This document shows, one piece after another, positions 25,755 through 41,630 of a stretch of 64,000 bases of DNA. This stretch comes from Roseovarius sp. S88 (GTDB lineage: Bacteria > Pseudomonadota > Alphaproteobacteria > Rhodobacterales > Rhodobacteraceae). The notes below the pieces were generated by a model, which did no database searches, was not told the origin of the DNA, and worked only from the letters and a program-made list of their open reading frames with translations. Positions within the stretch are counted from its first letter, which is position 1; each line of letters opens with the position of its first letter. The DNA lies in assembly GCF_037023735.1 (NCBI RefSeq), contig NZ_CP146069.1:3079501-3143500 (forward strand), given 5' to 3'. The translations under genes were made by a program, and so were the position numbers.

Positions 25755-26193
25755 TGCGGATTCAATGGATCGCCGCAACACACTGTGCAAACTTCTCCGC
25801 CGGGGTTTCGTATTGCAAGGTTTTTCGTGGCCGCTCGTTGAGTTGCCGCGCGACGGCGCTGAGTTTGGCCTGACTGAGGGTCGACATGTCGATGCCTCGC
25901 GGGAAGTACTGACGCAAGAGCCGGTTGGTGTTCTCGTTACTGCCGCGTTGCCACGGCGATTGCGGATCGCAGAAGAAGACGTCGATCTTTGTCGCCATGG
26001 TGAACGCCGCATGGGCGGCCATCTCTGAGCCGCGATCCCATGTCAGCGAGCGGTAGAGTTCTTTGGGCAATTTTCGGGCCTGCTTGATCAGGGCGGTGAT
26101 AACGCTTTGCGTATCCTTGTTCGCAACTTTGGCCAGCATCACGAACCGCGAGTGCCGCTCGACCAGCGTAGCGATGTAGCTGTTGTTTGCCCC
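25755..26193 (-). mobile_element. Truncated, inverted copy of the IS30-family element (copy 1)
   Basis: Starting with the outer terminal repeat TGCGGATTCAATGG at 25755, 439 bp match the right end of copy 2 in inverted orientation, and the encoded C-terminal 143 residues of the transposase are identical. Homology stops abruptly at 26193, inside the codons for GGANNSYIATL. The left end and the DNA-binding half are missing. It contains the DDE-domain end with the LTWDRGSEM and SPWQRGSNENTN segments. Confidence 0.9.
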
Positions 26194-26369
26194 TCCGAAC
26201 CTTGGTCTTGACGTTAGCATTGCGTCTGTTGACCGGGAAGCTCTCAAGTTTATCGCTATGAAGTCAATTCGGACATTGGAGCTCATTGCAGAATCTGGAA
26301 GGTTCGGGCTCGAAACTGACATCCAACGCTTTCTGTTGGTCAATTCTGGGCTGAACGTCAGTTTAGCTG
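26194..26369. other. Spacer between IS copies 1 and 2, no gene supported
   Basis: These 176 bp are not IS sequence. Near the copy 2 border they contain CAATTC and GGGCTGAACG, also found bordering copy 1 at 25731-25755. The open frames here are fusions with the IS remnant and look accidental. Confidence 0.5.
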
Positions 26370-27596
26370 TGAGGATTCAACGGGTGGTCGCAACACTTTA
26401 ATCTTTTTGGAGAGATGGAGTGTTGATCATGAAGTACCGCACGCGGACGTTTTATACGGACAAACAGAAGTCGGAGATGTGGGATCGGTGGCAGCGGGGT
26501 GAGTCCCTGAGCTCGATAGGCCGCAGGTTTGATCGTGCGTCGTCTTCGATTTTTCCGCATCTGGCTTTGACTGGTGGTATCCGTCCGCGTGCACGCACCA
26601 GGTCTCGGCTGGCCTTGAGCCTCGAGGAGCGTGAGGAGATATCCCGTGGGCTGGCAGGGGATCGGTCATTGCGCTCTATTGCGCGCGACCTTAGACGTAC
26701 TCCCTCGACGATCAGCCGGGAGGTGCGCAGAAACGGTGGGCGCAAGGCGTATCGCGCGGCATTGTCAGATCAGCGCGCATGGGACTGCGCAAGGCGGCCC
26801 AAAGCCTGTAAGCTCTCCTTCAACGACCACTTGTGTCGGTTCATTGCCCGAAAGCTGCGGTTGAAGTGGTCTCCTCAGCAGATCGCGGGCTGGCTGATGC
26901 GCAAGCACCCAAACAAAGAGCGAGAGCGTGTGAGCCACGAGACGATCTATCGCAGCCTTTATGTGCAGACGCGCGGCGTTCTGAAGAAGGAGCTGCAGCA
27001 ATGCCTGCGCAGCCCGCGCGCCATCCGTCGGTCCCGGCATGCGACCCAGAAAGGTCTGAAGCTACGCAAGATCAAAGACGCAGTGCCGATCAGCGAGCGC
27101 CCGCCCGAAATCGAAGACCGGGCCGTGCCCGGCCACTGGGAGGGCGATCTGATCGTTGGGGCAAACAACAGCTACATCGCTACGCTGGTCGAGCGGCACT
27201 CGCGGTTCGTGATGCTGGCCAAAGTTGCGAACAAGGATACGCAAAGCGTTATCACCGCCCTGATCAAGCAGGCCCGAAAATTGCCCAAAGAACTCTACCG
27301 CTCGCTGACATGGGATCGCGGCTCAGAGATGGCCGCCCATGCGGCGTTCACCATGGCGACAAAGATCGACGTCTTCTTCTGCGATCCGCAATCGCCGTGG
27401 CAACGCGGCAGTAACGAGAACACCAACCGGCTCTTGCGTCAGTACTTCCCGCGAGGCATCGACATGTCGACCCTCAGTCAGGCCAAACTCAGCGCCGTCG
27501 CGCGGCAACTCAACGAGCGGCCACGAAAAACCTTGCAATACGAAACCCCGGCGGAGAAGTTTGCACAGTGTGTTGCGGCGATCCATTGAATCCGCA
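26370..27596 (+). mobile_element. IS30-family insertion sequence, full copy (copy 2)
   Basis: The 1227-bp element is bounded by imperfect inverted repeats of about 27 bp: left end TGAGGATTCAACGG and right end, read inward, TGCGGATTCAATGG, both running to CGCAACA. It carries one transposase gene. No target duplication could be recognised at its ends (left flank AGCTG, right flank TGGCA). It is a direct repeat of copy 3. Confidence 0.92.
26429..27589 (+). CDS. IS30-family transposase
   Basis: The protein of 386 residues has an N-terminal HTH region (MKYRTRTFYTDKQKSEMWDRW), a second HTH with TPSTISREVRRNGG typical of IS30, and a DDE integrase core: VPGHWEGDLIVG (first Asp), LTWDRGSEM (second Asp) and QRGSNENTNRLLRQYFPRG (Glu). 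The ATG at 26429 has TGGAG eight bases upstream. Around residue 42 a run of five T gives SIFPHLALTGG. Copy 3 has four T and a broken frame there. Confidence 0.92.
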   Translation: MKYRTRTFYTDKQKSEMWDRWQRGESLSSIGRRFDRASSSIFPHLALTGGIRPRARTRSRLALSLEEREEISRGLAGDRSLRSIARDLRRTPSTISREVRRNGGRKAYRAALSDQRAWDCARRPKACKLSFNDHLCRFIARKLRLKWSPQQIAGWLMRKHPNKERERVSHETIYRSLYVQTRGVLKKELQQCLRSPRAIRRSRHATQKGLKLRKIKDAVPISERPPEIEDRAVPGHWEGDLIVGANNSYIATLVERHSRFVMLAKVANKDTQSVITALIKQARKLPKELYRSLTWDRGSEMAAHAAFTMATKIDVFFCDPQSPWQRGSNENTNRLLRQYFPRGIDMSTLSQAKLSAVARQLNERPRKTLQYETPAEKFAQCVAAIH

Positions 27597-27691: not shown

Positions 27692-28873
27692 TCAAAACAC
27701 AGGTTGCCAGGACAATATCCGCTCAACCACGCGTCGGCCAAAGTCATGCGTGGGGCCTTCCCAGTGCGGGCTCAGCCGACCCCCATCGTAGGCTGGCGAC
27801 AGACGCCCCTGTTGCAAGAGTTCCAACATGCCGAGGTCTTCTCGGTTTAGGTCGTCCCACATTTTTAATGTGGCCTCGCGGGCGTCTTTATAGGCGTCCG
27901 ATGTGGCCGCATCGCCAATCAGGAAGACATGCAATTCTTCTCGTGTTTCGTCCGGTGCCACCGGGTAGCTGACCAGAACTGAAAACTGATCGGGAAAGAC
28001 TTCTGCCGCGAAATGCGGAAAACACAGGAACCACAGACCGCGTTTGGCATCTGCTTCGGACAGGCCTGGATAATGAGGTAACCCCTCGCCCCGGCCCTCA
28101 TCCAATTCCGGAAAGACATAATCGTTGTAAAACACATGCCGGTCCCATTCCCCTGACCAACGAACATTCATCGGTGCGAATTTCAGCAGCTTGGGATGCA
28201 CCGCGAAGACGTGGTAGCCTTCCATGTAGTTCTCGTAGACCAGCTTCCAGTTGGCGTTCACTTCAAACTCGAGCTTGCCAGCCCAGCGGATCGCGGAAAA
28301 ATCATAGTTACCGGTTCGTTCCAGCAATGGTTTGAGCCATTCGTCCAACGGCTCGGCATCGCCCGAAACATTGACAAAGATGCACCCGTTCCATGTCTCG
28401 CAACGCACTTGCACTAAGTCCAGTTTCTCGCCGCCGCCATCCTCGAACTTGTCCACCACATTCGGGCCGGAAAAATGAGGGCGCGAGCGCAGCTTGCCGT
28501 TCAGCCCATAGCTCCACGCGTGGTAGGGGCAGGTCAGCGTTGGCTTCTTGCAAGGTTCGGTCAACAGCCTGGCCCCGCGATGGCGACAAACGTTATGTAG
28601 CGCGCGGATGTCCCCATCCTGATCGCGCAGAATAATCAGGGGCGCGCCGCCGATTTCGATGGGCTTCATATCGCCCGGCTCGGGCAATTCCGCACAGGCC
28701 CCGGCAAAGACCCAAGCGCGGGCAAAGCAATGTTCTTGCTCAAGCTTCAGCCAGTCTTCTGACCAGTAGGCGGCATTGGGCAATCCGCTGGCCGCTTCAA
28801 TCGGGGCGAACGCCTGAGCCAAGCCCTCTTCGCCGATCAGATCCACAACTTTTTTGCGAATATCGTCGGTCAT
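27692..28873 (-). CDS. Rieske non-haem iron oxygenase, alpha subunit
   Basis: The 393-residue protein has a Rieske 2Fe-2S centre, CRH (C96, H98) and CPYH (C115, H118), and a mononuclear iron site in ENYMEGYHVFAVH (H221, H226). The residue before the first His pair that normally bridges the two centres, Asp in ring-hydroxylating dioxygenases, is Glu 218 here. Glu is reported at that place in CntA-type carnitine oxygenase and I expect it in betaine demethylases. I infer N-demethylation or C-N cleavage of a quaternary amine. No ferredoxin reductase gene is nearby, so an unlinked partner is needed. It overlaps the sulfotransferase-like gene by 4 bp. Confidence 0.88.
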   Translation of the reverse strand: MTDDIRKKVVDLIGEEGLAQAFAPIEAASGLPNAAYWSEDWLKLEQEHCFARAWVFAGACAELPEPGDMKPIEIGGAPLIILRDQDGDIRALHNVCRHRGARLLTEPCKKPTLTCPYHAWSYGLNGKLRSRPHFSGPNVVDKFEDGGGEKLDLVQVRCETWNGCIFVNVSGDAEPLDEWLKPLLERTGNYDFSAIRWAGKLEFEVNANWKLVYENYMEGYHVFAVHPKLLKFAPMNVRWSGEWDRHVFYNDYVFPELDEGRGEGLPHYPGLSEADAKRGLWFLCFPHFAAEVFPDQFSVLVSYPVAPDETREELHVFLIGDAATSDAYKDAREATLKMWDDLNREDLGMLELLQQGRLSPAYDGGRLSPHWEGPTHDFGRRVVERILSWQPVF

Positions 28874-29649
28874 CCACTCACCATTTCGGGGCGCAGCCTG
28901 TGCGTGTACAGCGAGTTGTAGTGACGCATGAAGGTTTCATAATGTAAATTCAAATTCTCTGGCAGATCGTCTGGATCCACATGTTTGCGCGGGATCGGTT
29001 TCAGCCCGTCGCTGTCGCGCAGGGAAGCATGCCAAATCTCGTCATTGCCATCATACCACAGCACATCATCACGCGCGCCCGGTTCCCAGCTAAGAGCCGC
29101 GCGGATAAAGGGGATGCCAATCGCCTTACAATAAATGCGCACCATGGTATCGGGGTCTTCCAGCAAATCGTCACTGTCCAGAACCGGCGGGGTTTGCCCA
29201 AGGGCGCGGAGCAGATCAAAGAGCGCCTGTTGCGGACCAAAGCTGATTTCTTGGGCTTCAAACCCGTCTTCCATCCCCGCCTTCTTGTAGGAGCAGTGCA
29301 GCGAGGCCAGTACCTTGGCCGGATCACGGATCAGAAAGCTGTGAGTGATCCTTTCCAGAAACGCATCACTCCACAGATGATCGGTATGGTGGGGCATGTC
29401 CTTGACAAAGACGGGGCGCTTTTCGGCGGCCTCCTGTATGTCAATCCAGATTTTCTCGAACGTGGCCTCTGGGCGCTGCCGGTCCGTGGGAGCAACGCGT
29501 GGCGCGCGTGCCTCGGGGCCCTGATACCAGGCCATACCAAAAGGTTCGTGAAAACAGCTCAGATCACCGCGCTGGCGCATCATCCATTCGAAGGCGGTCG
29601 AGGTCGAGCGGGGCGTGGCCCACAGGAAATAGATCGGGTGCCCTGTCAT
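28870..29649 (-). CDS. Sulfotransferase-like protein
   Basis: The protein of 259 residues has the PAPS-binding signatures: YFLWATPRSTSTAFEWMMRQRGD (5'-phosphosulfate loop, residues 6-28) and HSFLIRDPAKVLASLHCSY (3'-phosphate Arg and Ser). The substrate is unknown. The ATG at 29649 has AGGAG seven bases upstream and overlaps the previous stop as ATGA; a longer reading frame is unlikely. Both overlaps place it in a three-gene operon with the racemase-fold enzyme and the Rieske oxygenase, where a sulfotransferase is unusual for a degradative pathway. Confidence 0.8.
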   Translation of the reverse strand: MTGHPIYFLWATPRSTSTAFEWMMRQRGDLSCFHEPFGMAWYQGPEARAPRVAPTDRQRPEATFEKIWIDIQEAAEKRPVFVKDMPHHTDHLWSDAFLERITHSFLIRDPAKVLASLHCSYKKAGMEDGFEAQEISFGPQQALFDLLRALGQTPPVLDSDDLLEDPDTMVRIYCKAIGIPFIRAALSWEPGARDDVLWYDGNDEIWHASLRDSDGLKPIPRKHVDPDDLPENLNLHYETFMRHYNSLYTHRLRPEMVSG

Positions 29650-30476
29650 GCGGCTGTCTCCTGCAAGGAGGCCAGCAACCGAGGTTGATCGCCCACGGGA
29701 GCGACGCCCAATGTGCGGAAGATGTTCCAGTAAAGCGCGCAATCGGCAGAGATGATGGGTTTGCCGATTTTCTCTTCTATCTCACGCACGACACTGACCA
29801 TGCGCAGCGGGAGGCCATCTGCGCGGCGGAAATTGGGCATACCCAGGCTGATCAGAACATCTGCGTCGGGAGCTTGTTCGGCCACATATTCGAACGACTT
29901 CAACGCGAAATCGCCGGGGAAGATCCAAGTCGCCTCGTTCACCTCTTCCTGAGTGCCCATCAATCCGTGATTGACGAAATTCCCCGAGTAAAGGATGTCC
30001 AAGCCACCATCGGCCAGAAACCGGGTGGTCCCCTCACGCCAGTCGGGCCAGAAATAGACGCCATTCACCGCGATGGATTTGGCGCCCATGTCCTTTGCCG
30101 CCTCGACCAAAGACATGCCCGCCATATGCAGCGGTACCTGATAAGTATCTTCCATCCGGTCGCAAAACGCTCGGATATCGGCGGGCGTCTTGCCGCCCGC
30201 ATGGGACCAGTTGGTGCCAACCTGTCCCACAACATCGGCCCCGGCGTTGGACATGCAGTGCACAACCTCTTCGAGCTTGTGAAAGTTATCGACGCGTTGA
30301 GAGAGCTGATGGGCGTATTCTTCGACATGGATCAACCTTCCATGGGCGCCGACGCCTTCGGGCGCGATCCTCAGAAAATCATGCGGGGCGGCATCAAAAT
30401 CATGTGGAGGTGCTGTAAATCCCACCTGATGGGGAAAGATTTTCTTGCTCGGGTCGTTCCAACGTTCCGGCTTCAT
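29646..30476 (-). CDS. Asp/Glu racemase-fold enzyme (maleate isomerase / arylmalonate decarboxylase-like)
   Basis: The 276-residue protein resembles maleate cis-trans isomerases and arylmalonate decarboxylases: VVHCMSNAGADVVGQVGTNW with Cys 74 at the first catalytic position, and near the end GKPIISADCALYWNIFRTLGV, which matches their KPVxSxNxALLW segment. The second catalytic Cys expected around residues 211-212 (ISLGMPNFR) is absent. It could thus be a decarboxylase or racemase acting through one thiol. It is the first gene of the leftward operon, 68 bp from the divergent regulator. Confidence 0.75.
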   Translation of the reverse strand: MKPERWNDPSKKIFPHQVGFTAPPHDFDAAPHDFLRIAPEGVGAHGRLIHVEEYAHQLSQRVDNFHKLEEVVHCMSNAGADVVGQVGTNWSHAGGKTPADIRAFCDRMEDTYQVPLHMAGMSLVEAAKDMGAKSIAVNGVYFWPDWREGTTRFLADGGLDILYSGNFVNHGLMGTQEEVNEATWIFPGDFALKSFEYVAEQAPDADVLISLGMPNFRRADGLPLRMVSVVREIEEKIGKPIISADCALYWNIFRTLGVAPVGDQPRLLASLQETAA

Positions 30477-30491
30477 ATGACCTTCTTCTGA

Positions 30492-30543
30492 ACAAATTTG
30501 GATTCGTTATTGCGCTTTAGGAAAATTTTAGGCATCAATTTGT
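30492..30543. promoter_or_regulatory. Divergent control region with inverted ACAAATT/AATTTGT pair
   Basis: The 68-bp gap between the leftward and rightward operons is AT-rich and holds a seven-base inverted repeat, ACAAATT at 30492-30498 and AATTTGT at 30537-30543, centred between the two start codons. It is a candidate operator for the adjoining XRE-cupin regulator. No clear ribosome-binding site precedes the regulator's ATG at 30545. Confidence 0.45.
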
Positions 30544-30544
30544 C

Positions 30545-31167
30545 ATGTACGTCAAGAAAAATGAATTAACGCCTCCTAAAGACGCTCTGACACAACTGGG
30601 CGAAGACCTACGCGGGTTGCGACGGGCGCAAGGGTTGACGCTGGATGATCTGGCGGTGGCCAGTGGCAAATCCGTCTCATTCATCTCCAAGATTGAGCGA
30701 GGTCAGGCCCGACCATCTGTGACCACATTGCAGGAGCTCGCAGGCGCACTTGGTGTTCCGGTGGGTTGGTTTTTGAAACAGACGGCCCTGTGCCCGCGGA
30801 TGAGCGCCCTTGTGTGGTGCGCGCGGGTCGTCGTCGAAAGCTCAGCTATTCGGGGCTGACTTCGACCGATTACATGGGGTTTGAGGACCATCTGTTATCC
30901 GCCAGCCTTGATGGGCAGCTTGCGCTTGGCATGTCGACCTATCAGCCGGGCGGCAATTCAGGGGATGAGCTTTACACCCATACCGGCGAAGAAGCGGGGT
31001 TGGTGATCAAAGGACAGATAGATCTTCATCTGGATGGGAAAGTATTTCGGCTGGGTACCGGCGACAGCTTTTCCTTCGCCGCCAACCTGCCGCATCGCTA
31101 TTCCAACCCTGGCGACAGCGAGGCCCAGATCGTCTGGGCCAATACGCCCGTCAACCTCAGAAGATAG
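30545..31167 (+). pseudogene. XRE-cupin transcriptional regulator, frameshifted
   Basis: The N-terminal frame (30545 onward) encodes an XRE helix-turn-helix: LGEDLRGLRRAQGLTLDDLAVASGKSVSFISKIERGQARPSVTTLQELAGALGVPVGWF. The C-terminal frame to 31167 encodes a cupin: GDELYTHTGEEAGLVIKGQIDLHLDGKVFRLGTGDSFSFAANLPHRYSNPGDSEAQIVW. They are joined by WFFETDGPVPADER if one T is added to the run of five at 30770-30774. With five T the frame is lost after about 76 residues. This is a one-base deletion, a read error, or a slippage site. The FAD gene follows 3 bp later. Confidence 0.82.
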
Positions 31168-31170
31168 CCC

Positions 31171-33567
31171 ATGCAAAGCCATACACGTGTCGTCGTCATC
31201 GGAGGCGGCAATATGGGTGCCGGGGTGCTATATCACCTCGCGCATATGGGGTGGACCGATTGTGTGTTGATCGAAAAGGCCGAGCTGACCAGCGGGGCAA
31301 CGTGGCACGCCGCCGGTTTGGTGAGCCGGATGGTTGGGGGTCAGGCCCTCGGCGCCATGCACGATTATGCAGTCGATCTATACAAAAGGGTCGAAGCTGA
31401 GACCGAAGTTGGCGTTAGCTGGCACAATTGCGGGTCCCTGCGGGTGGCAACCAGCCCTGATCACATGGACTGGATCAATCACATCCGCGATGCTGTTCTG
31501 GCCCGCGGACAAGAGGCCGAGATCATCGATGCAGCCGAAGTCGCTCGATTGAACCCGCTTTATGACGTCGAAAAAGCCGATGTGCTGGGCGCGATCTATA
31601 CACCGGATGATGGCCATGTAGACCCGTCTGGCACATGTCAGGCGATGGCCAAAGGCTCGCGCCAACTTGGGGCCAAGGTTATCCGCAATTGCCGTGTGAC
31701 GGATACCCGTCAGTTGCCGTCAGGCGCATGGGAGGTAGTGACCGACCAAGGCACGATTGTTGCAGAACATGTGGTTAACGCAGCCGGATATCACGCGCGG
31801 CAAGTCGGTGCGATGGTGGGGTTGGACCTGCCGATCACCACAATGCTGCATCACTATGTGGTAACCGATGCCGTGCCGGAATTCGACCAGATGCAACACG
31901 AAATTCCTGTCACTCGCGATGACTATTTCTGCGGCTACATCCGCCGCGAACAGGGGTCGGCACTGATCGGTCTCTACGACAAACAAGACCCGCAATCGGT
32001 CTGGCTTGATGGCTGCCCGTGGGACAGTGCCAATGAGCTATTCGAGCCAAACTGGGACGGGATTACGCCCTGGCTGGAAAACTGTTTTGAGCGCATGCCC
32101 GCCCTGATGAATCGTGGCATCAAGCGGGTGGTAAATGGCGGTATCACCTATACGCCCGATGGTGCGATGATGCTGGGCCCTGCACCTGGATTGCGTAACT
32201 ACTGGCTCGCATGTGGGGCGACCGTGGGCATCGCCTGGGGGCCCGGCGCAGGTCGAGCGTTGGCGCAGTGGATGATCGAAGGCTCCGCAGACATCTCTAC
32301 CCGCGCCTTCGATCCGCGCCGGTTCGGCACCTGGGCCGATGCGGACTATGCCAAAACCCGCGCGACCGAAGACTACACTCTACGTCAAGCAATGCCCTTT
32401 CCCCAGCATCAGCGCGACAGCTTTCGTGGGATCAAGACATCAGGTGCTCATGATCGCACGGCGGCGTTGGGTGCAACGTTTGAAGAGGCCGGAGGATGGG
32501 AACGCCCCCGCCTATATGCGCCTGACCCTTTGGGCTGGCGGCGCACATCTGCGTTTGATCAGGTGGCGGCCGAATGTCAGGCTGTGCGCCAACGCGTGGG
32601 GCTCTCCGATTTATCCGCCTTTGCCAAGTTTCGCATCGATGGCCCGGGGGCCGAGGATTGGCTAAATGCCATCTGTGCCAACCGGATGCCGCGTGTTGGA
32701 CGCACTTGCCTGACCCTTCTGCTCAATCGCAAAGGCACAATCGAGGGCGAAGCAACAATCGCGCGAACCGGAGCTGAAAGTTTTTACTTTGTGACCGGCG
32801 CACCGTCCGAACGGCGGGTATGGGACTGGATGACCCTGCATTGTGGTGTACCGATGACGGACGTCGCGATGACCAATGCTACGGATGAGATTGGTATTCT
32901 TGGTTTGGCCGGACCAAAGTCGCGTGACGCGCTTGCCGCCTTCACCAACGATGATGTTTCTAACGATGCTCTGCGGTGGCTGGCCTGCAAAGATCTGGTA
33001 GTCGCTGATGTCCCAGTGCTTGCCCTGCGGCTCAGTTTTTCAGGTGAGCTGGCCTATGAGTTACATGCGCCCAATGACCAGCTGGGGGTGTTGTGGGATA
33101 GGCTGTGGGACGCGGGCCAGCCGCATGGGATCGCGCCTTTTGGCACCAAGGCGCTAGACAGTCTCCGGATTGAGAAATTTTATCGCGGGGGGCACGAGCT
33201 GGCCAATGACGCATGCCACAAGGATGTCGCACAAGAGCGGTTTGCCGCAACGGACAAGGACTTTGTCGGTCGCGATGCGATGCTTGCGCGAAGGCCGCGC
33301 AGTCGTATCGCATTGCTGGCGCTGGAGGACGAAGAAACCGAAGCCTTGACGGGTGAGGCCGTTTTCAAGGACGGGCGCATGGTGGGTTCGATCACCTCGG
33401 CGGCCTACGGGCACACGGTTGGGCAGTCTCTGGCCATAGGGTTTTTGTCAGAGGAGGCACGACAGCCCGACACCGTATTGGATGTGTCAATCCTTGGCCA
33501 ACGCGTCAGGGCCAAGGTTCTGCCGAACGCGCCATGGGACCCGGAAAATGAAAGGTTAAAGGTATGA
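31171..33567 (+). CDS. Dimethylglycine/sarcosine dehydrogenase-like FAD protein with GcvT domain
   Basis: The 798-residue protein has an N-terminal D-amino-acid-oxidase-type FAD domain (VVVIGGGNMGAGVLYHLAHMG, residues 7-27), the ATWHAAGL segment whose His 46 matches the covalent FAD His of dimethylglycine dehydrogenase, and an FAO-M linker. The C-terminal half is GcvT-like (VGLSDLSAFAKFRIDGPGAEDWLN, LTLLLNRKGTIEGEATIAR, and LRIEKFYRGGHEL). Relatives oxidise N-methyl groups and pass the carbon to tetrahydrofolate. It would take the product of the Rieske enzyme. The stop overlaps the methyltransferase start by 4 bp. Confidence 0.9.
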   Translation: MQSHTRVVVIGGGNMGAGVLYHLAHMGWTDCVLIEKAELTSGATWHAAGLVSRMVGGQALGAMHDYAVDLYKRVEAETEVGVSWHNCGSLRVATSPDHMDWINHIRDAVLARGQEAEIIDAAEVARLNPLYDVEKADVLGAIYTPDDGHVDPSGTCQAMAKGSRQLGAKVIRNCRVTDTRQLPSGAWEVVTDQGTIVAEHVVNAAGYHARQVGAMVGLDLPITTMLHHYVVTDAVPEFDQMQHEIPVTRDDYFCGYIRREQGSALIGLYDKQDPQSVWLDGCPWDSANELFEPNWDGITPWLENCFERMPALMNRGIKRVVNGGITYTPDGAMMLGPAPGLRNYWLACGATVGIAWGPGAGRALAQWMIEGSADISTRAFDPRRFGTWADADYAKTRATEDYTLRQAMPFPQHQRDSFRGIKTSGAHDRTAALGATFEEAGGWERPRLYAPDPLGWRRTSAFDQVAAECQAVRQRVGLSDLSAFAKFRIDGPGAEDWLNAICANRMPRVGRTCLTLLLNRKGTIEGEATIARTGAESFYFVTGAPSERRVWDWMTLHCGVPMTDVAMTNATDEIGILGLAGPKSRDALAAFTNDDVSNDALRWLACKDLVVADVPVLALRLSFSGELAYELHAPNDQLGVLWDRLWDAGQPHGIAPFGTKALDSLRIEKFYRGGHELANDACHKDVAQERFAATDKDFVGRDAMLARRPRSRIALLALEDEETEALTGEAVFKDGRMVGSITSAAYGHTVGQSLAIGFLSEEARQPDTVLDVSILGQRVRAKVLPNAPWDPENERLKV

Positions 33568-34193
33568 GCGACAACAAGGTTTTGAGGTCTTACAGGGCGA
33601 ACTCTGCGGAGGATCAGCAGGCCGTCTACGACACATGGGCCGAAAGCTATGAGCGTGATCTCTGTGCAATGGGCTATCGTCTGCCTGCGATAGCCGCTGG
33701 GGCGTTTGCCCGATACGTGGCGCCTGACACTGATCCTATTCTGGATGCAGGATGCGGAGGCGGCCTTCAAGCTGAAGCTTTGGCACTGCTGGGCTACGGT
33801 CCGCTGATTGGGCTGGACCTATCTGACGGCATGCTAAAGATCGCCCGCGCCAAAGGCATCTATTCCAAGTTGCATCAAGGCGCCTTGGGGCCACGGTTGA
33901 ACCTTCCGGACGACAGCATGGGAGCAGTGCTTTGCATTGGGACAATCACGCCCAACCACGCATCGCCCGACAGTTTTGAGGGGTTGATCCGTGTTGCCCG
34001 CCCTGGGGCCGCCATCGTGTTCAGCTTGCGCGATGATCCCGCACAGGACCCGGCCTATCCCGATAAGGTCGCCGCCCTCGCAGAGGCAGGCGCGTGGCAT
34101 CATGTCTGGAGCAGCGACAGCATCCAGTCCATGCCTTACGGCGCCGAAGAGGTCACGCACCGTCTGCATGTCTTTCGAAAGGCCGACGCATGA
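33564..34193 (+). CDS. Class I SAM-dependent methyltransferase
   Basis: The 209-residue protein has motif I ILDAGCGGGLQAEALALLGY, LIGLDLSDGMLKIARAKGIY (acidic end of strand 2), and LPDDSMGAVLCIGTI. It is a small-molecule type methyltransferase (Williams-Beuren 27-like). The role in a demethylation cluster is unclear; it might methylate an intermediate or dispose of a thiol or amine. It overlaps both neighbours by 4 bp, so it is translated as part of the operon. Confidence 0.87.
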   Translation: MSDNKVLRSYRANSAEDQQAVYDTWAESYERDLCAMGYRLPAIAAGAFARYVAPDTDPILDAGCGGGLQAEALALLGYGPLIGLDLSDGMLKIARAKGIYSKLHQGALGPRLNLPDDSMGAVLCIGTITPNHASPDSFEGLIRVARPGAAIVFSLRDDPAQDPAYPDKVAALAEAGAWHHVWSSDSIQSMPYGAEEVTHRLHVFRKADA

Positions 34194-35296
34194 CCATTCC
34201 TGATCGTATGCGCGCCGTTGTGCTTGTGGGCCATGGCGGGCTGGATCAGCTTGTCTATCATGACGATTGGCCAACCCCAAAGCCCAAACCGGATGAGGTT
34301 TTGGTCAAGGTCGGCGCGTGCGGACTGAACAACACCGATATCAACACGCGCACGGCGTGGTATTCAAAAACAGTTACTGACGGGATCACGCAAGCGGGCG
34401 GAAAAGACGGATTTGCCGAAGCTGAAGCCGCGCAGGGCAGTTGGAGTAATTCACAGATCACCTTTCCGCGCATTCAGGGCGCGGACGTGGCCGGGCGCAT
34501 TGCCGCCGTGGGCATGGATGTCGATCCATCACGGTTGGGTGAACGCGTGATCCTTGACCCGTGGCTCCATGGACATGGCCAATGGCACTTGGCTGAGAAT
34601 GCCAGTTACTTTGGATCAGAATGCAATGGAGGTTTTGCCGATTATGTGACGATCCGCGCCGCCAATGCGGTTCCAATCAACTCCCCGCTGTCGGACGCGG
34701 AACTGGCCACCTTCCCCACTGTCCTGACCACGGCAGAGCATCTGGTTTGGCGCGCAGACCCGCAACCCGGAGAATGGGTGGTGATTGCTGGCGCCTCTGG
34801 CGGGGTCGGCTCAACAGCTATTCAGCTATGTTTGTTGCGCGGCGCGCAGGTTATCGCGATCTCAACACCGCAAAAGGCCGAAACGCTCAGGGAACTTGGT
34901 TGTTCTGCTGTGATGGATCGCAATAGCGCTTCTTTGGAGGATGACATTCGGGATGCAGCAGGCGGCGCTGTCGATGTGGCACTTGATGTTGTGGGCGGCG
35001 CGCTATTTCCGCCCCTTGTTGGTGCGTTGCGTCAACGCGGGCGCTATTCGACCAGCGGGGCCATCGCCGGTCCGGTTGTCGCCTTCGATCTGCGTTTGCT
35101 GATCTACAAAGACCTGCAATTTACCGGTGCCACCATCACACCACCGGGTCTTTTTGCCCAGGCCTGCCGGTTGATCGAAACAGGCCAACTTGCCCCGCAG
35201 TTGGCGGCCTCATTTGCGTTGAAAGACCTTGTGCTGGCACAGGAGGCATTCCTGGCCAAGTCCCATATTGGAAAAATTGTTGTGACGATAGAGTAA
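34190..35296 (+). CDS. MDR-family alcohol dehydrogenase / quinone reductase
   Basis: The protein of 368 residues is a medium-chain dehydrogenase: N-terminal GroES-like domain with VGACGLNNTDINTRTAWYSK, and a Rossmann domain with VVIAGASGGVGSTAIQLCLLRGAQVIAIST. The first zinc ligand Cys is present (ACGLN), but the GHE motif is not; it uses RIQGADVAGRI, as in zinc-free quinone reductases and threonine-dehydrogenase relatives. The ATG at 34190 overlaps the methyltransferase stop. It probably oxidises an alcohol or reduces an enone made in the pathway. Confidence 0.87.
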   Translation: MTIPDRMRAVVLVGHGGLDQLVYHDDWPTPKPKPDEVLVKVGACGLNNTDINTRTAWYSKTVTDGITQAGGKDGFAEAEAAQGSWSNSQITFPRIQGADVAGRIAAVGMDVDPSRLGERVILDPWLHGHGQWHLAENASYFGSECNGGFADYVTIRAANAVPINSPLSDAELATFPTVLTTAEHLVWRADPQPGEWVVIAGASGGVGSTAIQLCLLRGAQVIAISTPQKAETLRELGCSAVMDRNSASLEDDIRDAAGGAVDVALDVVGGALFPPLVGALRQRGRYSTSGAIAGPVVAFDLRLLIYKDLQFTGATITPPGLFAQACRLIETGQLAPQLAASFALKDLVLAQEAFLAKSHIGKIVVTIE

Positions 35297-35301
35297 GCGA
35301 C

Positions 35302-36372
35302 ATGCGCATCATCAACATTGAAACCATTCCCTTCGAGCCGTGTTTCACAGGCGGCGGTTACGCGATGTCTTTTGTCATACAGAACACGCTATACGACCAA
35401 CTGGTGCGCATCACGCTTGAAGACGGCTCGCAAGGGGTTGGCGAAAACGTCCGCTGGCCTGCCGTGCCAATGGAGGAGGCAGAAGCGGCCGAAGCCGAAA
35501 TGATTGAAGCATTGAAAGGCAGACCCTTGGCCGATCTAGCGGGGTTGATCCAGACCTGGTGCGCGCAGGGTCGACCATGGCGCGGTCTGTGTTTCGCCCT
35601 CGATACCGCGTATCACCACCTAATTTCGCAGAAACTAGGCGTGCCGTTGGTGAGCCTTCTGGGCGGCCCTACGGAAGGGGATGCGCAGACTTATCTGTCT
35701 CTCTCCAGCGAAGCGCCCGACGACATGGCTGAGGTGGTGCGGTCCAAAGGGGCCGCCTTTGCCGTCATCCAGGCCAAGCTGGGAATTGGCGAGGTCTCGG
35801 ATGATATAGACCGCGTGCGAGCCGTTCTTAATGTGATGACACCCGACCAATTGCTACTCGCGGATTTTAACGGCGCGCTTTCGGTTGAGCAGGCTCTGAC
35901 ACACCTTGGTGAGTTGGACGATCCCAGGCTGATTTGGGAAGAGCCGTGCAACACCTATGATGAGAACCTCGAACTGGCCCGCAAGCTTGCGGCGCCCTTG
36001 ATGTTTGATCAGTCGATGATTGATCTAGAAACCTATGTCAGAGCCGTCGAAGATCGCGCCGCGCATTCCGTGGTGATCAAACCCGCCTTGTTGGGAAGCT
36101 TATCTGCCTCGCGGACGGCGCGTGATATGTGTGCGACGGCATCGATCAAAATGCGGATTGATGGCCCTTGGTGTGGACAGATCGGCGCATGGGCAGCGTT
36201 GTCTGTCGCAGCCGGATCACAACCCGGGCGCGTATTGGCCTCAATAGATCTGACAGAACCAATCGAAACACCCTCTGATCTGATTGTCAGAAATTGGCCT
36301 AATCGCATCGCTCCGTCGCTTACCGCGAACCTCGTCGGGATTTTCGATGATTATCTTCTGCAGTGCCAGTAG
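35302..36372 (+). CDS. Enolase-superfamily enzyme (MR/MLE group)
   Basis: The 356-residue protein has capping-domain segments at both ends and a barrel with the metal ligands D188 (LLADFN), E213/E214 (WEEPCNT) and D236 (MFDQSM), plus the catalytic Lys 260 (VVIKPALLG). The second Lys of the KxK motif is K159 in IQAKLG, with Gln 157 where the first Lys usually is. WEEPCNT recalls the 4-hydroxyproline-betaine 2-epimerase HpbD. It would take the alpha proton of a carboxylate, giving racemisation or dehydration. It ends the rightward operon, 5 bp after the MDR gene. Confidence 0.87.
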   Translation: MRIINIETIPFEPCFTGGGYAMSFVIQNTLYDQLVRITLEDGSQGVGENVRWPAVPMEEAEAAEAEMIEALKGRPLADLAGLIQTWCAQGRPWRGLCFALDTAYHHLISQKLGVPLVSLLGGPTEGDAQTYLSLSSEAPDDMAEVVRSKGAAFAVIQAKLGIGEVSDDIDRVRAVLNVMTPDQLLLADFNGALSVEQALTHLGELDDPRLIWEEPCNTYDENLELARKLAAPLMFDQSMIDLETYVRAVEDRAAHSVVIKPALLGSLSASRTARDMCATASIKMRIDGPWCGQIGAWAALSVAAGSQPGRVLASIDLTEPIETPSDLIVRNWPNRIAPSLTANLVGIFDDYLLQCQ

Positions 36373-36939: not shown

Positions 36940-39900
36940 ATGAAAGTGCAAGACGACATCAACGGAACGAATAGAAATGACCGCATTATCGTGGGAAGTG
37001 GTGCTCAGAATGTAGAAGGCGGGGGTGGAAATGACAGGATCGTTTCTTTGGCCGATGCTGGAGAACCAGATCCGGCCCAGACCGATGGCTCTGATGGTCG
37101 CGTAACCGAGGCTGTTTCAGCGGAGACTGCGAATGATACGCTGACCGGTGGTGACGGTGCGGATCGGTTTGAGTTCCACGCGCTTATTGACGCGAAGGAA
37201 GAGGTCATTGCCCAGCACACAAATTCCGCTGGGCGCACGAATTGGGCCAAGGTCGCGGGCGAAAATGACAATGTTCACGACCACTGGGTCAATGGGTTTG
37301 GCTTCGATACCATCACGGATTTTTCCAAGGCTGAGTGTGACACAATCGAAATCAAAGGACACACGGCAACAATCCAATCCATCACCTATGGCGAGGATGA
37401 AGGGGGCGCGTATTCGCTTATCACTGTGATCAGCCAACAGGGCAACGGCGGTGCAGGTGGGGCCAACACGGCCACGGGCGCCCATGACGAGGACCCGCTG
37501 GGTCAGATCAAAGTCTATGGCGACGAAGTCACACTGGATGATGTGAAGGTGACCAATACCAATGACGGGATCGACCGTCTCTACCACGCCAATGCGGTCT
37601 ATGGCGCCATCGACGCTGGGGTCACACAGGAGGTTTACACGAACACCGACGGTGACAATTACGACGGGAGCCTCTATCGCCAACGCGACGTGGTGCACGC
37701 CGGCGAAGGCAGCCAGACGATTGACACAGGCGGTGGCAATGACCTGATTTTCAGCTATTCGGATGGCGGCGAACCGGATCCCGCGCAAACAGATGGTGCG
37801 GACGGCCGCGTTAATCCAGCCATTCCGGATGGAGCCGCAGACGACGTTTTGGCGGGCGGGCAAGGCAAAGACACATTTGCATTCCGGCTGTTGCTCAATG
37901 CCAAGGAAGAAATCCTTGAAAAACACACGCGCGACGATGGCTCAGTTAACTGGCGCAAAGTGGCGGGTGAGAATGACAATGTACACGACCATTGGGTTGA
38001 AGGCATTGGCAATGACACGATCCTGGATTTTTCAAACCAGGATGGTGACAAGATCGACATTCGCGGACACACCGTAGAGATTGCGTCAATCACATATGGC
38101 GAAGATGACGGGGGCGACTTTTCCCTGATCACGTTGCGTTCGCAACAAGGCGATGGTGGCGGCGCGCATGATGAAGATCCGCTTGGCACAATCAAAGTCT
38201 ATGGTGACAAGGTCACAGAGGACGACATCAATGTGAAGGCCAAGGTTTTCTATGGTGTGGATCAACTGGATGAGATCAGCGACGGCGAAGCGACCTCTCC
38301 GGCATCAACGCCCGAGCGCGAAATTGTCGAACCGCAGTGGGGCGCTGAAAACCCGGAAAGCATCGATCTGAATTTCGAAGGCACATCACGCTGGGACTTC
38401 ATCAAGGCAGGAAGCGGCTCGCAGACGGTCAATGGCGGCGCAGGTGGAGACAGGTTCATTTCTTACGGCGACGCCGGTGAGCCGGACCCTGCCCAAACGG
38501 ATGGTGCCGACGGCCGGGTCAATCCTGCGCTTTCCGAAAGTGCTTCGGATGACGTCTTTATCGGTGGTGCCGGGGGAGATCGATTTGAATTCCATGCGCT
38601 TTTAAACGCGCGCGCAGAAGTTCTTGCGCAGCACACCAATGATCGCGGTCACGTCAACTGGCGCAAAGTGGCTGGTGAGAATGACAATGTGCATGATCAC
38701 TGGGTCGAGGGCATCGGCAATGACATGATCATGGACTACAACAAGTCCGAAGGTGACAAGATCGTCGTGCGCGGTCACACGGTCGAGATTGCCGACATCA
38801 CCTATGGTGCAGATGAGGGTGGGGAGTTTTCCCTTGTTCGTATCATCAGTCAACAGGGCAATGGCGGCGCCGGGGGTGCCAACACCGAAACTGGTGCGCA
38901 TGACGAAGACCCGCTTGGCACGATCAAGGTCTATGGCGACAAGGTCAATTTAGAGGACATCAAGGTCCAGGCTTCGGGCGTTTTCGACGGTGTCGACCGG
39001 CTTACCGAGGCCGATCAACTCGCTGAGTTCAATGGAGGTGTGCAAAGCTTTGCGTCCTCCACCGACGGCGAAGAAATCATCACAGCACCAGCAAGCATCA
39101 AGACAACGGACCACATCGAAATCGGAGCTGGCGCGCAAACCGTGTTTGCCGGCGCAGGACGCGATTACATTCGCGTATATGCCGATGCGGGCGAACCGGA
39201 TCCGGCGCAAACCGATGGGGCCGAGGGCCGGATCAACCCACCCGTTGACCCGTCTACGACAAATGACGTGATTTCCGGAGGGCAAGGCAAGGACCGGTTC
39301 ACTTTTAATATGTTGCTCAACGCGACGGCCGTAGTACTTGCGAAACACACCAGAGATGATGGCACAATCAATTGGCGCAAAGTTGCAGGCGAAAACGATG
39401 CAGTGCATGACCACTGGGTTGAAGGCATCGGGAATGACACCTTGCTTGATTTCTCTGAACAGGATGGGGACCAGATCATTTTGCGTGGCCATACTGTTGA
39501 GATTGCGGACATCACTTATGGAAAGGATGCGGGTGGTGACTACTCCTTGATCGCTATTCGCTCTCAACAAGGCGATGGCGGCGGTGCGCATGACGAGGAT
39601 CCACTCGGCACGCTCAAAGTGTATGGCGACACGGTCACCCAGGACAACGTTACGGTTCAAGCAAAGGGCGTATTCGACGGTATTGACGCGTTAGAACCGA
39701 TTGCCAACGCGCCCGCGCATCAGGCCGGAACCAATGATGCCGACAACTTGGTGGGAACGGATGGCGCCGACAATATTCACGGCAATCGCGGCAATGACCT
39801 GGTCACCGCCGGCGACGGCGATGATTTTGTCTTTGGTGATGGCGGCAATGACATCCTGTTTGGAGGGGGCGGAAACGACTATCTCGAAGGCGGATGGGGC

Positions 39901-40224
39901 CGAGACGTGTTGGATGGCGGAGATGACAATGATGTTCTGGTATCAACCGGAGGCATTGACGTAATGATTGGCGGCGATGGTGCAGACACCTTTGGGTTCC
40001 AGGGCAAAAGCAAAGGCGGCACGATTGTTGATTGGGAAGCGGGCGTTGATCGAATTGATCTATCTCGTCTTGATGAAGTGGATGATTTCGAAGACATCAC
40101 CATCACCCAAACGTCTGACACGGCGGCCACAATCACATTTGTAAATGACAAATGCCAAGAGGCGACGGTGGATGTGTTTTCCAGCTCAGCTTTTGAGCTC
40201 ACCGCCAACGATTTTCTAATCTAG
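36940..40224 (+). CDS. Large RTX-type calcium-binding protein with four tandem modules
   Basis: The 1094-residue acidic protein has no N-terminal signal. Four modules of about 236 residues each begin with a glycine-rich nonapeptide-like turn and GEPDPAQTDG (residues 41, 277, 513, 751). They share NWxKVAGENDxVHDHWV, (R/K)GHTxxIxxITYG and AHDEDPLGxxKVYGD. From about residue 930, classical GGxGxDxxx repeats (GDGGNDILFGGGGND) lead to a C-terminus FELTANDFLI, as in type I secreted proteins. I infer Ca-dependent folding outside the cell; function is unknown. ATG 36940 is only one base from GGAG; GTG 36946 is spaced seven bases and may be the true start. Confidence 0.8.
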   Translation: MKVQDDINGTNRNDRIIVGSGAQNVEGGGGNDRIVSLADAGEPDPAQTDGSDGRVTEAVSAETANDTLTGGDGADRFEFHALIDAKEEVIAQHTNSAGRTNWAKVAGENDNVHDHWVNGFGFDTITDFSKAECDTIEIKGHTATIQSITYGEDEGGAYSLITVISQQGNGGAGGANTATGAHDEDPLGQIKVYGDEVTLDDVKVTNTNDGIDRLYHANAVYGAIDAGVTQEVYTNTDGDNYDGSLYRQRDVVHAGEGSQTIDTGGGNDLIFSYSDGGEPDPAQTDGADGRVNPAIPDGAADDVLAGGQGKDTFAFRLLLNAKEEILEKHTRDDGSVNWRKVAGENDNVHDHWVEGIGNDTILDFSNQDGDKIDIRGHTVEIASITYGEDDGGDFSLITLRSQQGDGGGAHDEDPLGTIKVYGDKVTEDDINVKAKVFYGVDQLDEISDGEATSPASTPEREIVEPQWGAENPESIDLNFEGTSRWDFIKAGSGSQTVNGGAGGDRFISYGDAGEPDPAQTDGADGRVNPALSESASDDVFIGGAGGDRFEFHALLNARAEVLAQHTNDRGHVNWRKVAGENDNVHDHWVEGIGNDMIMDYNKSEGDKIVVRGHTVEIADITYGADEGGEFSLVRIISQQGNGGAGGANTETGAHDEDPLGTIKVYGDKVNLEDIKVQASGVFDGVDRLTEADQLAEFNGGVQSFASSTDGEEIITAPASIKTTDHIEIGAGAQTVFAGAGRDYIRVYADAGEPDPAQTDGAEGRINPPVDPSTTNDVISGGQGKDRFTFNMLLNATAVVLAKHTRDDGTINWRKVAGENDAVHDHWVEGIGNDTLLDFSEQDGDQIILRGHTVEIADITYGKDAGGDYSLIAIRSQQGDGGGAHDEDPLGTLKVYGDTVTQDNVTVQAKGVFDGIDALEPIANAPAHQAGTNDADNLVGTDGADNIHGNRGNDLVTAGDGDDFVFGDGGNDILFGGGGNDYLEGGWGRDVLDGGDDNDVLVSTGGIDVMIGGDGADTFGFQGKSKGGTIVDWEAGVDRIDLSRLDEVDDFEDITITQTSDTAATITFVNDKCQEATVDVFSSSAFELTANDFLI

Positions 40225-40404: not shown

Positions 40405-41630
40405 TGAGGATTCAACGGGTGGTCGCAACACTTTAATCTTTTTGGAGAGATGGAGTGTTGATCATGAAGTACCGCACGCGGACGTTTTATACGGACAAAC
40501 AGAAGTCGGAGATGTGGGATCGGTGGCAGCGGGGTGAGTCCCTGAGCTCGATAGGCCGCAGGTTTGATCGTGCGTCGTCTTCGATTTTCCGCATCTGGCT
40601 TTGACTGGTGGTATCCGTCCGCGTGCACGCACCAGGTCTCGGCTGGCCTTGAGCCTCGAGGGGCGTGAGGAGATATCCCGTGGGCTGGCAGGGGATCGGT
40701 CATTGCGCTCTATTGCGCGCGACCTTAGACGTACTCCCTCGACGATCAGCCGGGAGGTGCGCAGAAACGGTGGGCGCAAGGCGTATCGCGCGGCATTGTC
40801 AGATCAGCGCGCATGGGACTGCGCAAGGCGGCCCAAAGCCTGTAAGCTCTCCTTCAACGACCACTTGTGTCGGTTCATTGCCCGAAAGCTGCGGTTGAAG
40901 TGGTCTCCTCAGCAGATCGCGGGCTGGCTGATGCGCAAGCACCCAAACAAAGAGCGAGAGCGTGTGAGCCACGAGACGATCTATCGCAGCCTTTATGTGC
41001 AGACGCGCGGCGTTCTGAAGAAGGAGCTGCAGCAATGCCTGCGCAGCCCGCGCGCCATCCGTCGGTCCCGGCATGCGACCCAGAAAGGTCTGAAGCTACG
41101 CAAGATCAAAGACGCAGTGCCGATCAGCGAGCGCCCGCCCGAAATCGAAGACCGGGCCGTGCCCGGCCACTGGGAGGGCGATCTGATCGTTGGGGCAAAC
41201 AACAGCTACATCGCTACGCTGGTCGAGCGGCACTCGCGGTTCGTGATGCTGGCCAAAGTTGCGAACAAGGATACGCAAAGCGTTATCACCGCCCTGATCA
41301 AGCAGGCCCGAAAATTGCCCAAAGAACTCTACCGCTCGCTGACATGGGATCGCGGCTCAGAGATGGCCGCCCATGCGGCGTTCACCATGGCGACAAAGAT
41401 CGACGTCTTCTTCTGCGATCCGCAATCGCCGTGGCAACGCGGCAGTAACGAGAACACCAACCGGCTCTTGCGTCAGTACTTCCCGCGAGGCATCGACATG
41501 TCGACCCTCAGTCAGGCCAAACTCAGCGCCGTCGCGCGGCAACTCAACGAGCGGCCACGAAAAACCTTGCAATACGAAACCCCGGCGGAGAAGTTTGCAC
41601 AGTGTGTTGCGGCGATCCATTGAATCCGCA
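40405..41630 (+). mobile_element. IS30-family insertion sequence, full-length copy with frameshift (copy 3)
   Basis: The 1226-bp element has the same ends as copy 2 (TGAGGATTCAACGG left, TGAATCCGCA right) and is in the same orientation 12.8 kb away. It differs by one missing T at 40585-40588 and by a G for A that turns LEEREE into LEGREE. The left flank is CATCCC and the right flank GGACGA, with no target duplication between them. Its right end is 46 bp beyond the rpoC terminator. Confidence 0.92.
40464..41623 (+). pseudogene. IS30 transposase, frameshifted copy
   Basis: From ATG 40464 the reading frame gives 46 residues (to SIFRIWL) and stops at 40602-40604. The rest, equivalent to residues 47-386 of copy 2, is intact in another frame from about 40601. 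The difference is a run of four T instead of five. Copy 2 supplies active transposase, and this copy's ends are intact, so it may still move in trans. Confidence 0.85.

Follow-up and report, generated by a model that had tools for sequence, protein, structure and literature searches.

N-methylated betaines are an important labile pool of marine carbon and nitrogen, and to our knowledge many of the routes by which they are degraded have yet to be described. The subject of this report is an eight-gene divergent cluster of Roseovarius sp. S88 that combines enzymes of the betaine-demethylating type with a sulfotransferase (ST) and an enzyme of the arylmalonate decarboxylase (AMDase) fold. Its closest described relatives on the demethylating side are the Rieske enzymes of the CntAB, GbcAB and Stc2 systems, which resemble the Rieske protein of the cluster in sequence, in a glutamate at the bridging position and in their pairing with an FAD demethylase, and dimethylglycine dehydrogenase (DMGDH), whose full-length domain order and WHAAGL motif recur in a second protein of the cluster. 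In AMDase, according to PMC4996985, Cys188 is the proton donor and T75, S76, Y126 and G189 form the dioxyanion hole. The ST domains of CurM (curacin) and Ols (olefin synthase) carry motifs for 3'-phosphoadenosine 5'-phosphosulfate (PAPS) and precede a decarboxylating step; as PMC4090904 describes for Ols, the ST sulfates a beta-hydroxyl and thereby activates it, after which a thioesterase could catalyse dehydration and decarboxylation.

The cluster lies in the window, by which we mean the whole stretch of 64,000 nucleotides that was analysed (3,079,501–3,143,500 on contig 1 of a 3.64-Mb genome in two contigs). A preliminary description, made from the sequence, had presented it as an uncharacterised divergent cluster for an N-methylated compound, in which two N-demethylating steps precede stereochemical or decarboxylating ones. 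The observation is confirmed and the interpretation is partly supported. With a probability of roughly 40%, we propose that the cluster would catabolise a quaternary N-methylated carboxylic acid of the betaine class, with a sulfation-assisted elimination and under the control of an XRE-cupin regulator. The earlier remark that the gene set matches no known pathway agrees with our literature search, in which no description of it was found (the search used chosen words, and most subscription papers lie outside it).

Predicted demethylation enzymes and the conserved core

Open reading frames (ORFs) and Pfam matches bear out the eight genes as first described, in content, coordinates and strand (Table 1). 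The 4-bp start/stop overlaps reported within both arms correspond to four ATGA overlaps (AMDase-like/ST, ST/Rieske, DMGDH-like/methyltransferase and methyltransferase/oxidoreductase); gaps of 3 nt and 5 nt separate the regulator from the DMGDH-like gene and the oxidoreductase gene from the enolase-superfamily gene. As had also been stated, no transporter is encoded in this segment, judging from its ORFs and Pfam matches, the remainder of the window not having been annotated for transporters.

Among solved structures, the Rieske protein is best matched by carnitine monooxygenase CntA (6y9c, 120 bits), followed by 3vca (113.5 bits), which we take to be the stachydrine demethylase Stc2, and by 4qup, titled 'Monoxygenase; demethylase'. 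Identity with glycine betaine monooxygenase GbcA is rejected, the score of 160 bits being far under the NCBIfam cutoff of 670 (NF058607). A glutamate in a NYMEGYH-type motif is found in all 120 listed relatives (of 641; 7999 candidates were scored) and aligns with the CntA glutamate that we assume to be E205, in place of the bridging aspartate; ring dioxygenases carry aspartate at this position. A plasmid search with the Rieske protein returned five records at 33–36% identity. In carnitine monooxygenase CntAB the partner reductase gene presumably adjoins that of the oxygenase, whereas the window cluster has no adjacent reductase gene. Domain searches of the S88 genome gave no FAD_binding_6, one weak NAD_binding_1 and nine Fer2 matches, so the Rieske probably receives its electrons from separate ferredoxins. 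Across the whole genome there are eleven Rieske-oxygenase matches, yet no FAD_binding_6 reductase domain was found.

The DMGDH-like protein matches dimethylglycine dehydrogenase 4pab over residues 5–785 (535 bits) and has the DAO, FAO_M, GCV_T and GCV_T_C domains in full-length order. The WHAAGL motif noted in the preliminary description, a putative covalent-FAD histidine motif, starts at residue 45. Unlike the gene for dimethylglycine dehydrogenase itself, this gene is linked with Rieske and AMDase-like/ST genes. An N-demethylating role, as first proposed, is supported for the predicted Rieske and DMGDH-type enzymes by family membership and synteny.

Five genes, for the Rieske, ST, AMDase-like and DMGDH-like proteins and the regulator, are syntenic in all four Roseovarius-type genomes (L039–L042) at about 80–94% identity. 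The remaining three are patchy in these orthologous loci and are regarded as accessory on that ground: the methyltransferase gene is present in two (L041, L042), that of the medium-chain dehydrogenase/reductase (MDR) in two (L039, L040) and the enolase-superfamily gene in one (L039). A gammaproteobacterial metagenome-assembled genome (MAG, L056) encodes the AMDase-like, ST, Rieske and DMGDH-like proteins, and an actinobacterial MAG (L117) encodes the regulator, the AMDase-like, ST and Rieske proteins and part of the MDR gene. The cluster is therefore not a chance assembly, given the five-gene synteny in four genomes and the Rieske/ST/AMDase-like trio in two MAGs. The closest named relatives, in a survey that kept the best 80 of 281, are Rhodobacteraceae bacterium EL129, Roseovarius albus CECT 7450, Roseovarius sp. 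MMSF_3359 and an uncultured Roseovarius. At E <= 1e-100, the window Rieske has matches in 5 of 394 genomes sampled from the family, the S88 genome included.

In three of the four other genomes with such a match, which belong to three other genera (L136, L137, L139), the XRE-cupin, Rieske and DMGDH-like genes occur together, and the fourth (L138) has the Rieske gene. No AMDase-like, ST, methyltransferase or enolase match was found in the 17–20 kb around the Rieske gene of these four loci, and the MDR has a match, at 26% identity, in L138 only. The combination of Rieske, XRE-cupin and DMGDH-like genes without the AMDase-like/ST pair suggests that demethylation is the core and that the pair is a joining module. 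At two of these loci a DddP-like M24 gene overlaps the end of the Rieske gene (L136:10311–11546, L138:10431–11660). The old-yellow-enzyme gene of L117 was considered as an N-demethylase and is not supported as such, its best solved relative being 2,4-dienoyl-CoA reductase (220 bits), ahead of histamine dehydrogenase (149) and trimethylamine dehydrogenase (138).

Table 1. Features of the cluster and its flanks (positions in the window)
Feature	Position	Strand	Basis
IS30-family element, left copy	26370..27596	+	transposase ORF 26420-27589
Rieske non-haem iron oxygenase, betaine/carnitine type; probable first N-demethylase	27692..28873	-	Pfam Rieske + Ring_hydroxyl_A
PAPS-type ST, Sulfotransfer_5, 259 aa	28870..29649	-	
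Cys-less AMDase/maleate-isomerase-fold enzyme, ST partner (AMDase-like)	29646..30476	-	
XRE-cupin (PuuR-like) regulator, frameshifted	30545..31167	+	HTH_3 and Cupin_2 on separate ORFs
DMGDH-like FAD/folate protein; probable second N-demethylase	31171..33567	+	Pfam DAO-FAO_M-GCV_T-GCV_T_C
Class I S-adenosylmethionine-dependent methyltransferase, accessory	33564..34193	+	Methyltransf_11
MDR (quinone/enoyl reductase-type) oxidoreductase, accessory	34190..35296	+	ADH_N + ADH_zinc_N
Enolase-superfamily (MLE-type) enzyme, accessory	35302..36372	+	MR_MLE
IS30-family element, right copy, same orientation	40405..41630	+	repeat comparison

The sulfotransferase and its racemase-fold partner

The preliminary description had listed a sulfotransferase-like protein. 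It is present and of a predicted PAPS type, and its importance had been understated: the ST gene belongs to the cluster, and no other gene accompanies the racemase-fold gene as constantly. Of the 78 AMDase-like loci in which an ST gene would have room, 67 have one directly downstream of the AMDase-like gene on the same strand, and the pair is found in several phyla. When the ST sequence was compared with solved structures, the matches were antibody chains at E values of 0.067 or higher, which amount to noise, so the fold was examined by model. The first 27 Foldseek rows for the predicted fold are sulfotransferases or retinol dehydratase, and a 77-row alignment, which includes two loci of apparently the same DNA (L039 and L052) and extra ST copies of some loci, conserves the PRSTST motif of the 5'-phosphosulfate loop and the 3'-phosphate arginine R108. 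Fold and motifs together are those of a predicted PAPS-dependent sulfotransferase. Ranked by Z, the nearest structures are the CurM and Ols sulfotransferases, first and second, at 17–18% identity. Those are domains of polyketide synthases with a thioesterase as partner, whereas the window encodes two free-standing proteins, with an AMDase-fold partner, in an operon of degradation type. At 10 of 80 loci, genes of PAPS synthesis are found no more than 5 kb from the AMDase-like gene, against an expectation of 0.5–1.5 loci if a 3.5-Mb genome has 2–6 such genes, these copy numbers being assumed.

By fold, the closest relatives of the racemase-fold enzyme are maleate isomerase and AMDase. In an alignment of 85 AMDase-like rows (again with L039 and L052), whose site correspondence was taken from a HMMER alignment to AMDase, neither catalytic cysteine position holds a cysteine in any row. 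The position of AMDase C188 is occupied by N in 73 rows, I in 6, T in 5 and L in 1, which sets the family apart from true AMDase, while Gly74 of AMDase, which replaces the second cysteine, is glycine in all 85. Membership of the classical racemases or maleate isomerases is rejected because both cysteines are missing throughout, and a stereochemical step by a racemase of that kind is not supported. Of the dioxyanion-hole residues, the carboxylate-binding Y126 (Y141) and G189 (G212) are present in every row, T75 is T in 72, S in 11 and I in 2, and S76 is replaced by asparagine in all 85. The family has near-invariant residues of its own in W90, H92 and N215 (85/85) and R217 (84/85), which are further differences from AMDase and maleate isomerase. 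A third AMDase-superfamily match in the S88 genome (C1:849064, 30% identity) has no ST homologue beside it.

The S88 genome also contains a second cluster (L049; positions 1,621,000–1,640,999 of contig 1, C1). It shares with the window cluster homologues of the ST (49% identity), AMDase-like (49%), Rieske (29%), DMGDH-like (45%), MDR (46%) and enolase-superfamily (25%) proteins. In contrast to the window cluster, it has an RpiR regulator and not an XRE-cupin one, and it adds a cupin of the DMSP (dimethylsulfoniopropionate) lyase type together with proteins that resemble betaine aldehyde dehydrogenase and FrhB. The cupin scores 166 bits to DMSP lyase 5cu1 and 82 to DddQ (4la2), and the neighbourhood resembles that of roseobacter dddQ. 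It continues into protocatechuate-type genes (pcaC-like, BKACE, pcaB). The same six homologues occur in six further loci (L043–L048). In a tree of the AMDase-like protein alone (88-tip FastTree, midpoint root, sequences cut to the last 290 residues), the window clade, with L056, and the L043–L049 clade each have support of 1.0 and are not sisters, so a recent duplication as the origin of the second cluster is not supported. Together with the 29% identity of the Rieske proteins, this suggests that the gene combination was assembled more than once.

Partners of the AMDase-like gene up to 5 kb away were counted at 80 loci by tblastn, except that AcnX, butyrobetaine-hydroxylase-like dioxygenases, short-chain dehydrogenases/reductases (SDR) and one enolase group were counted by ORF communities, of which one to two representatives each were checked by Pfam. 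The most frequent are SDR (24 loci), two enolase-superfamily groups (13 and 5) and Rieske proteins (12), followed by DMSP-lyase-like cupins (11), butyrobetaine-hydroxylase-like dioxygenases (10), HAD type II proteins (10), DMGDH-like proteins (8), FrhB-like proteins (8), AcnX (7), PotABCD-like transporters (6), sulfatases (4), DddP-like proteins (3) and carnitine dehydrogenase (2). These counts are lower bounds, since the sequence extends for 4 kb to either side at only 42 of the 80 loci. Partners of the enolase-superfamily, AcnX, DddP-like or DMSP-lyase-like kind are present at 32 of the 80 loci and at 24 of the 42 with full flanks. The theme common to these partners is beta-substituted or beta-hydroxylated acids and betaines. 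Equivalence to DddP or to the AcnX-type cis-3-hydroxyproline dehydratase is not claimed, since the DddP-like proteins score 270–293 against an NCBIfam cutoff of 600 and an AcnX representative 337 against 700. The AcnX-type ORFs near the AMDase-like gene lie in actinobacterial MAGs (L090, L092, L108, L109, L116, L120 and L127; one representative was checked by Pfam). A butyrobetaine-hydroxylase-like gene occurs in 8 of the 11 loci that have room for an ST gene and lack it, and the ST gene is missing from 8 of the 10 loci with a butyrobetaine-hydroxylase-like gene; these loci are related, and a Fisher test of the association ignores the relatedness of the Acidimicrobiia loci. At one locus, six ORFs of the enolase-superfamily community lie close together beside the AMDase-like/ST pair (L063:12685–20343).

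A proposed pathway and its alternatives

In the pathway that we propose, the Rieske oxygenase would oxidatively take off one N-methyl group and the DMGDH-like protein, presumably acting second, would take off another and pass the C1 unit to folate. The ST, with PAPS as donor, would then sulfate a hydroxyl in the position beta to the carboxyl group. Its Cys-less partner of the AMDase fold, through conserved carboxylate-binding residues, would drive a decarboxylation or an elimination with sulfate as the leaving group. The enolase-superfamily enzyme, MDR and methyltransferase may tailor the route to certain substrates or products. The sulfation-elimination step is suggested by the nearest relatives of the ST, CurM and Ols, together with the loss of the proton donor from its partner; C188 would be dispensable because a decarboxylation that expels sulfate should need no proton donor. 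PAPS synthesis costs two ATP, so that one would not expect such a sulfation in an operon for degradation; its use there would indicate a bond whose cleavage requires a good leaving group. Substrate candidates are 3-hydroxy betaines, for example carnitine-like or 3-hydroxyproline-betaine-like acids. A more specific version, tentative and on balance doubtful, has the pair as a two-protein catabolic counterpart of CurM/Ols, in which the ST makes the beta-sulfate of a (demethylated) betaine acid, the AMDase-fold enzyme expels CO2 and sulfate, and the strategy is widespread. If so, it would span Alpha- and Gammaproteobacteria, SAR324, Acidimicrobiia and Anaerolineae, and DddQ-/DddP-like lyases and AcnX would serve the same hydroxy-betaine substrates. 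The AMDase-like/ST pair is easily searched for and open to direct biochemical test, and the cluster gives a context in which to seek substrates of DddQ- and DddP-like proteins.

Several observations weigh against this proposal. Some AMDase-like proteins have cysteines near the vacant sites, at position 214, three residues from the C188 site (9 of 85 rows, the window not among them), and at positions 83 (34 rows) and 93 (29 rows), near the G74 site, so a thiol may have a role in part of the family. Eleven of the 78 loci with room for an ST gene are without one, which implies that the AMDase-like enzyme can work without it. The ST apart, the window cluster gives no hint of sulfur, and PAPS genes are nearby at only 10 of 80 loci. 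The lead of CurM and Ols is about 1.5 in Z, and by Foldseek E-value they rank 2 and 4, with ties. None of the genes in the window cluster has a known role in providing the hydroxyl, and no CntB/GbcB-like reductase gene was recognised among its ORFs and Pfam matches. Clusters with the same Rieske type occur without the pair (L136, L137, L139), and the Rieske glutamate is not specific, as it is found at four of the seven other Rieske loci checked in the S88 genome, the other three giving no motif match.

The best placed of the alternatives, though unlikely, is a conventional betaine cluster of the hydroxyproline-betaine or carnitine type, in which the Rieske, DMGDH-like, enolase-superfamily and MDR proteins would perform known steps and the AMDase-like/ST pair would be a passenger. 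In its favour, Rieske, DMGDH-like and XRE-cupin genes also cluster without the pair, the enolase-superfamily enzyme aligns with 4mgg and 4h2h and finds its best NCBIfam match, under cutoff, in a cis-3-hydroxyproline dehydratase, and elsewhere the AMDase-like gene has as neighbours AcnX, another type of that dehydratase, and, at two loci, carnitine dehydrogenase. However, the pair is embedded in the operon, where the ST gene overlaps each of its neighbours by 4 nt; it is kept in all four Roseovarius-type orthologues as well as in L056 and L117, and it recurs in the second cluster of the genome with a different Rieske and with distant DMGDH, MDR and enolase homologues.

A less likely alternative is that the pair makes a sulfated product, such as a betaine-alcohol sulfate ester, for osmoprotection, export or storage, which the demethylation genes would recycle or shape. 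The PAPS genes and sulfatases near the AMDase-like gene (10 and 4 of 80 loci, respectively) would fit, and one of the sulfatases is clearly a choline-sulfatase (760 bits against a cutoff of 433), but the annotated partners are mostly degradative (dehydrogenases, lyases, demethylases, HAD hydrolase), and Pfam recognises no exporter among the genes of the window cluster.

Degradation of homarine or another N-methylated heteroaromatic acid by a pathway already in print is improbable, since the Rieske carries the CntA-type glutamate and not the aspartate of ring dioxygenases, and an enolase of the proline type would be ill-suited to a pyridine ring. PMC13390433 cites a 2026 publication on a homarine pathway conserved in environmental bacteria, but that pathway involves Mgd, and the window cluster encodes no Mgd. 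Least probable of all is an onium-propionate pathway (DMSP-like or beta-alanine-betaine) with the pair in place of DddQ- or DddP-type lyases: it would accommodate the cupin of the second cluster, the DddP-like genes that overlap window-type Rieske genes and those near the AMDase-like gene (L090 and L127, and L110 by tblastn and an M24 match alone), but the window cluster encodes no DddQ or DddP lyase, the DddP-like scores are under cutoff, dddP and dddQ mutants, according to a review that takes DMSP for the real substrate, make much less dimethyl sulfide, and a propionate without a hydroxyl offers no obvious place for sulfation.

Accessory enzymes, regulator and flanking elements

The enolase-superfamily protein retains the putative catalytic residues K159, D188, E213, D236 and K260 in alignments with 4mgg and 4h2h; we assume these to be the catalytic positions and take 4h2h to be a hydroxyproline-betaine epimerase. 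Identity with cis-3-hydroxyproline dehydratase (NF043002) is rejected at 113 bits against a cutoff of 500. The enzyme may epimerise or dehydrate a proline-type intermediate, as an optional step. The best NCBIfam match of the MDR protein is of the PIG3 type (147 bits), under the cutoff of 297.

An XRE-cupin regulator is present at the point of divergence, as had been described, except that in the window its reading frame is interrupted. The part for XRE and the part for the cupin are split over two frames (ORFs 30545–30859 and 30766–31167), whereas all four Roseovarius-type orthologues have an intact ORF of 207 aa. In a DNA alignment, a T run in the window is one base shorter than in these four. 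The frameshift may be genuine or an assembly error.

The cluster and the gene for a 1094-aa repeat protein are bracketed by two insertion sequence (IS) copies, which we presume to be of the IS30 family from the transposase sequence. The copies contain identical direct repeats (26370–26850 and 40405–40884) and matching 444-nt ends (27153–27596 and 41187–41630), and the pair looks like a candidate composite transposon. A third, partial and inverted IS copy lies left of the cluster (25755–26198). The 1094-aa ORF (36940–40224), read from its translation, contains a number of long internal repeats, and its C-terminus looks like a calcium-binding one of the RTX type.

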